Shown piece by piece: positions 17,402-18,015 of a stretch of DNA of 22,221 nucleotides; position 1 is the stretch's first letter, and each line of letters begins with the position of its first letter. Position numbers and translations under genes: made by a program. Below the pieces are notes generated by a model. That model searched no databases. It had not been told where the DNA came from and worked only from the letters and a program-made list of their open reading frames with translations. The stretch comes from a virus, in the IMG/VR virus record IMGVR_UViG_3300032116_001438, positions 1 through 22,221 of that record. One strand, written 5' to 3'.

Positions 17402-17861
17402 TGGTGGAGGCGAGGGGAGTTGAACCCCTGTCTTTATAATTTACATTAAAAGGTCTTCACATGCTTGAGTACATTTAACATTTCAGCTACCCTACGGTAA
17501 CGGAGACAACAGGTTGTTTGGCTGCACTAACCGAGTTTTATGTCTACCTATATGCGTGATTAAAGACCGCATATCGCCTATGACTAATTTTACCACACTA
17601 GTCACCTCGTGCACGAACCTCTATTGTTCAAAGTAGATTTAGAGGATCCTCTACTAGGCTCTTAGGCTGCGAGTAAACACTCGTCTTCTTCAACACCGGC
17701 GAGAAACTCGTCAGCATTGTTGAAGATGTATTCAGCTTCAGCTAGGAGATCAGACATATCATCGTCTGCATTTAGTTTTTGATCTGCTTTTTACGTGGCC
17801 AACAGATCAACCACGGCATGCGTTTTTAATTCCGACTATAAATCGAAACCAGTACGCCCCC
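17402..17861 (-). ncRNA. ssrA: tmRNA (one-piece)
   Basis: The 5' end GGGGGCG (17861-17855) pairs with 3' CGCCTCC, keeping the G3-U70 pair needed for alanine charging, and is followed by A and an encoded CCA at 17402-17404. The T arm GGGTTCAACTCCC and the 5' TGGTTTCGA element are canonical. The first pseudoknot (GCATGCCG, TTGGCCACG, GTAAAAAGC) closely follows the E. coli layout. 11 nt after it comes a GCA resume codon at 17769, the same distance as in E. coli. The tag frame runs 35 sense codons to TAA at 17662, far longer than the usual 8-15, ending LLAA. tmRNA with SmpB rescues stalled ribosomes and marks the products for proteolysis. Confidence 0.93.
17662..17769 (-). other. tmRNA tag-peptide frame, 35 codons
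   Basis: Begins at GCA: A-D-D-D-M-S-D-L-L-A and ends E-C-L-L-A-A before TAA. It is rich in Asp/Glu and Ala, with no internal stop. The final LAA fits ClpXP recognition of tmRNA tags; the long acidic front part is not part of the usual degron. Confidence 0.8.
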
Positions 17862-18015
17862 AAATTTCAAAGATCGTTACCACTGATTTACATTGTGGGC
17901 TCAATGGTCAAGCCTCTGTAATGTTTCTACCTCTGGTAGAGACGAAAGTGAGACGTTTAAATGTAACGTCTTAGGATCAATTTCATGTTTAATCCTATTA
18001 AAATATAATAAAGTA
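17862..18015 (-). other. Hairpin-rich tmRNA leader, no gene
   Basis: No credible frame. It holds AGACGTT/AACGTCT around a 7-nt loop (17951-17971), a 9-bp stem with a TCT loop centred on TCTACC/GGTAGA (17923-17943, one G-T pair on the plus strand), and nested stems TTACA/TGTAA and GGCTT/GAGCC between about 17887 and 17920. It would be the 5' leader of the tmRNA precursor, or a separate small RNA. Confidence 0.4.

Follow-up and report, generated by a model that had tools for sequence, protein, structure and literature searches.

A one-piece phage tmRNA with a 35-codon tag whose middle is conserved at the protein level

The tmRNA gene and its tag reading frame

The window, which is the whole 22,221-nucleotide stretch of viral DNA analysed (IMG/VR record IMGVR_UViG_3300032116_001438), has gene matches to queD, queE, thymidylate kinase, primase and Hsp20. 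On its minus strand, at 17402-17861, lies a complete one-piece tmRNA (ssrA) gene of 460 nt that was called by both ARAGORN and Rfam RF00023 (118.2 bits, E 4.9e-46, model positions 1-374, the full length), and all the features of this gene given below are on the same strand. The tRNA-like domain is intact. The 5' strand of the 7-bp acceptor stem, GGGGGCG (17855-17861), contributes the G3 of a G3-U70 pair and forms 7/7 pairs with the 3' strand CGCCTCC (17406-17412), which is followed by an A and the encoded CCA end (17402-17404, the whole 3' element being 17402-17412), and the T arm AGGGGTTCAACTCCCCT (17413-17429) has 5/5 stem pairs. Pseudoknot PK1 occupies 17781-17815, with S1 formed by CGUGG/CCACG and S2 by GAUCUG/CAGAUC. 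As read from the sequence, 11 nt (AAAAACUAAAU) separate the 3' end of S2 from a GCA at 17769-17767, and this GCA opens a frame of 35 codons, ADDDMSDLLAEAEYIFNNADEFLAGVEEDECLLAA (17665-17769), that is closed by a TAA stop codon at 17664-17662. The canonical landmarks claimed for a phage tmRNA in a preliminary description of this DNA (G3-U70, PK1 and the 11-nt spacing to GCA) are thus all present, and its tag frame, 17662-17769, is the one counted here. A conserved stretch, GATCTTTGAAATTT, adjoins the 5' end of the gene at 17862-17950 and was also found upstream of the tmRNA in L004, L006, L064, L077 and L078.

Pair counts over 18 aligned sequences gave 93.9% of PK1 cells paired, with changes on both sides in 9 of the 11 pairs; no shuffle scored as high and slid versions reached at most 41.6%. 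Covariation in PK1 and the 11-nt spacing together fix the resume codon. The Rfam alignment matches the GCA of the window to the resume codon of the model, so that the covariance model, which had been suggested as a check for a displaced resume codon and a short tag, points to the same GCA. ARAGORN named a different tag of 25 codons (EAEYIF...) that omits the first 10, and it omitted the same codons in the other recognised family members bearing the conserved core described below, except L017, for which an unrelated frame was named. The 25-codon tag was rejected because both Rfam and the PK1 spacing point to the GCA, and with codon 11 as the start the distance from PK1 would be 41 nt. The 35-codon tag is very probably translated as such, and it is clear that ARAGORN can cut long tags short or settle on a wrong frame, so that automatic annotation may hide tags of this kind. 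The tag is also long, as had been claimed: a tmRNA database published in 2025, with 97,179 sequences of which 79 are from phages, has 10 residues as its commonest tag length (PMC11915505).

A probable PK2 was read from the sequence at 17618-17654 (S1 GUAGA/UCUAC, S2 CCUC/GAGG), with stem changes followed by eye. As drawn on the window 60% of its cells pair, but a slide of one column raises the pair count to 72%; by eye the subgroups share a design and differ in register, and this difference accounts for the higher score of the shifted version. In L075 (606-704 and downstream) some 90 nt of extra sequence separate the tag stop from PK2.

Distribution of the tag among phages

An exact 20-nt pattern taken from the start of the tag retrieved nine other contigs, all of which have a 35-codon frame in the same resume context. 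A degenerate pattern for the core EYI[FL]NNADEF matched 65 IMG/VR contigs. In all 65 the frame was short with a tmRNA-tag-like ending, and the pattern occurred in no other viral gene, every match being a tag frame; the complete tags have 33-35 codons and one is cut by the end of its contig. Since the core pattern fixes the core residues it is unusable for measuring their conservation, and a set blind to the tag was obtained with a pattern based on the RNA of the PK2 region, which is not part of the tag. This retrieved 47 contigs, and each of the 47 has a tag of this kind, of 32-45 codons; among them are variants beyond the reach of the core pattern, although most of the contigs were shared with the set of 65. 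Of about 78 loci in the family, 21 (nine plus twelve) were scanned with Rfam, and each matched a tmRNA. A crude scan for the acceptor stem missed 3' ends that Rfam found in L002, L005, L007 and L008 and was not used for rejecting loci. These four loci have the same tag joined to a different tRNA-like domain of the tmRNA, a combination that suggests mosaic exchange. Two others, L071 (83-217) and L072 (9915-10049), have 45-codon family tags in which an additional hydrophobic segment, GDVVDSVVDFFNGA, separates the core from the end.

Of the seven largest family records searched (148-225 kb), six carry the T4-type major capsid protein gp23; the smaller family records are without gp23 and are probably fragments. 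The nearest isolates by gp23 are about 34% identical. One contig, L067, shares synteny with the window through most of its length, at 74-79% identity, and Rfam detects no tmRNA in it; for many contigs the match to the window is confined to about 17.36-17.95 kb. From these two observations the tmRNA looks optional and transferable. At about 3360-3740 in L067 the gene order is rearranged where the window has its tmRNA. A search for homologues with the neighbouring gene gave one contig, which is without a tmRNA. Neither SmpB nor SspB of phage origin was found in 19 family records, all of them possibly fragments, and these factors are therefore assumed to be supplied by the host. ClpP-like genes are present in five of the 19 records (L196-L200), as compared with 6/18 other tmRNA-bearing phage records, and ClpP was rejected as a partner of the tag for want of enrichment.

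Among isolated phages, no match was obtained with the tmRNA of the window as a blastn query or with either of two family tags in tblastn, and the 21-residue tag of S-CAM1, used as a positive control, was recovered. A composite tblastn query of several long tags joined by X also gave no match and, as it contained a mycobacteriophage tag of uncertain sequence, was given no weight. A slightly shortened core pattern, run against 84,980 prokaryote genomes, matched twice, each time in an ordinary protein and at a site where Rfam gave no tmRNA, so that the core as a tmRNA tag was absent from these genomes under a pattern which, like that for the isolates, is strict and could be escaped by more divergent relatives. 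Searches of PDB and Pfam with the tag produced chance-level matches at most, and there was no report of the core motif in the literature searched, a scope outside which most subscription papers fall.

Conservation of the tag peptide and its possible function

Selection was measured as pN/pS on the 38 unique tags of the tag-blind set, the window included. The most conserved part is a core of 16 codons in the middle of the tag, LLAEAEYIFNNADEFL (17701-17748), with a pN/pS of 0.065, or 0.099 if a variable 17th codon is included. Values were 0.295 for the first seven codons and 0.469 for the last six, a contrast with the flanks that is partly built in because the core was drawn after its conservation had been seen. 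The comparison of frames is independent of that choice: the two shifted frames gave 2.5 and 1.95. Third positions account for 3497 of the 4754 pairwise differences (74%) in the 17-codon core, counts that treat related tags as separate events, and in the 16-codon core 7/16, 3/16 and 15/16 columns vary at codon positions 1, 2 and 3 respectively. The Y, N, A, D and E positions of the core are invariant or nearly so. There is strong purifying selection in the tag frame that is absent in the two shifted frames, and at the protein level the middle of the tag is more constrained than its degradation end.

The LAA end ascribed to the tag is indeed kept in the window, and it closes 32 of the 43 distinct family peptides, with a final A in 41. 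The acidic front that had been proposed fared less well. The family tags are acidic, with net charges from -7 to -12, but the best conserved part is the middle and not the front. AlphaFold predicted the 35-residue tag as a helix (mean pLDDT 76, pTM 0.37), which is weak evidence for so short a peptide. The earlier suggestions of a changed fate for tagged proteins, or of binding to an adaptor, would fit with selection at the protein level, but nothing found here points to a diversion of host proteins, which had been suggested too. Being preserved as protein, the middle of the tag probably does something beyond marking for destruction.

The gene resembles standard bacterial tmRNA (RF00023) in its tRNA-like domain with G3-U70, its PK1, the GCA 11 nt downstream and the hydrophobic-Ala-Ala end, but differs in a tag of 35 codons and in an internal motif that is better conserved than the end. 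The tmRNAs of isolated phages are likewise phage-encoded and often lie beside tRNA genes, whereas the tags of S-CAM1, Wakanda and PMBT69 have 8-21 codons and none has the core. Gur and Sauer in 2008 and Ge and Karzai in 2009 are said to have described an extended ssrA tag in Mycoplasma / Mesoplasma florum and its recognition by Lon. Two reviews present this extended tag as read by Lon (PMC3985003, PMC9382460). On what they report, no closer parallel to an internal recognition module is at hand, as there too the tag is extended and the added part matters for recognition by a protease; the difference is that its sequence is unrelated and ends in AFA in organisms where ClpXP is absent, while the family here mostly ends in LAA. 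Among phages, the methylophage Melnitz has a two-piece tmRNA (PMC9004378).

The preferred reading, to which a probability of roughly 0.5 is given, is of a functional tmRNA of the phage, with a tag that combines a conserved module in its interior and an end of ClpXP-like type. By analogy with the established pathway, a host enzyme would charge the phage tmRNA with alanine, and in infected cells the tmRNA would act on stalled ribosomes together with host SmpB. Translation would resume at the GCA, so that alanine and the 35 encoded residues would be added to the unfinished protein, and the last of these residues would form a ClpXP-type degron leading presumptively to degradation. The middle, LLAEAEYIFNNADEFL, would be a second module that changes the handling of tagged proteins, most likely as a helix to which a protease or adaptor binds (the partner is a guess); that the middle is such a protein-recognition element appears about evenly balanced. 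It is a more tentative proposal that a lineage of T4-like phages uses a two-part signal, combining a phage-specific internal motif (for a protease, an adaptor or another reader) with a host-type degron. If this is true, the unrelated long tags in other phage tmRNAs would make two-part tagging a wider phage strategy. Why phages carry tmRNA is unsettled, and the conserved middle of the tag offers a specific, testable handle on that question by way of the motif's reader.

Other explanations of the long middle have to be weighed. It might serve as an extender, a solvent-exposed acidic helix that has no specific partner and gives proteases a hold on the tag's end, as could be expected from tags that are all strongly acidic and predicted to be helical, and from the occurrence of other phage tmRNAs with long tags whose middles differ and can even be basic. 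Substitutions should, however, be tolerated in a spacer, whereas the core is under more constraint than the end and its Y, N, A, D and E positions hardly change, which makes this explanation rather unlikely. The module might instead send tagged proteins to a particular place or complex, as in sequestration or packaging, or act in the ribosome while the tag is being synthesised. The same constraint and the confinement of the core to tag frames (65/65 pattern matches) are in keeping with such a purpose, but neither a partner, a location signal nor evidence of stalling was found and the degron-like end is kept, so that it seems improbable.

That the tag copies a long host tag, its length and core being host traits, draws on the resemblance that phage tmRNAs can bear to those of particular bacterial lineages (PMC9004378). 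It is judged quite improbable, since among the prokaryote genomes the core pattern occurs only in the two ordinary proteins, a result of a strict pattern applied to a collection from which the host species may be missing. Finally, it could be the RNA that is conserved rather than the peptide, the middle being a structural element and a short tag, such as that of ARAGORN starting at codon 11, being the one used. This is scarcely credible when third positions are free to vary and first and second are not, when the shifted frames are without constraint, and when Rfam and the PK1 spacing both set the resume codon at the GCA.

Tag lengths in other phage tmRNAs

A wider sample was drawn with a pattern for the tmRNA 5' end, among the matches listed; resume codons were assigned by hand from the listed candidates and uncertain loci were left out. 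In the first part, 66 loci were assigned among the matches listed, 47 with tags of 8-21 codons, none with 22-27 and 19 with 28-35. The second part, a hand count among the matches listed, gave 20 short tags, one of 26 codons and eight of at least 30. The 3' end was checked in 19 long-frame loci among the matches listed and a full tRNA-like end was present in 13, but not in the other six. These counts point to long tags being common in such phages but do not amount to a measured frequency. Parts of the motif recur among the matches listed, AEADEIL in L116 and L188 and NNADEIL in L081 and L193, and other long tags among the matches listed have unrelated sequences, some of them basic. Three tmRNA-like phage loci, L169, L183 and L184, have long basic tags, e.g. 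GAKNRVRALGLKNRLAAKRFGFKSRKLALAA. A second long-tag group (L086, L093, L116, L123, L137, L171, L174 and L188) has tags of 30-35 codons with APSVAEADEILAKFG-like middles, which are possibly related to the core of the window.
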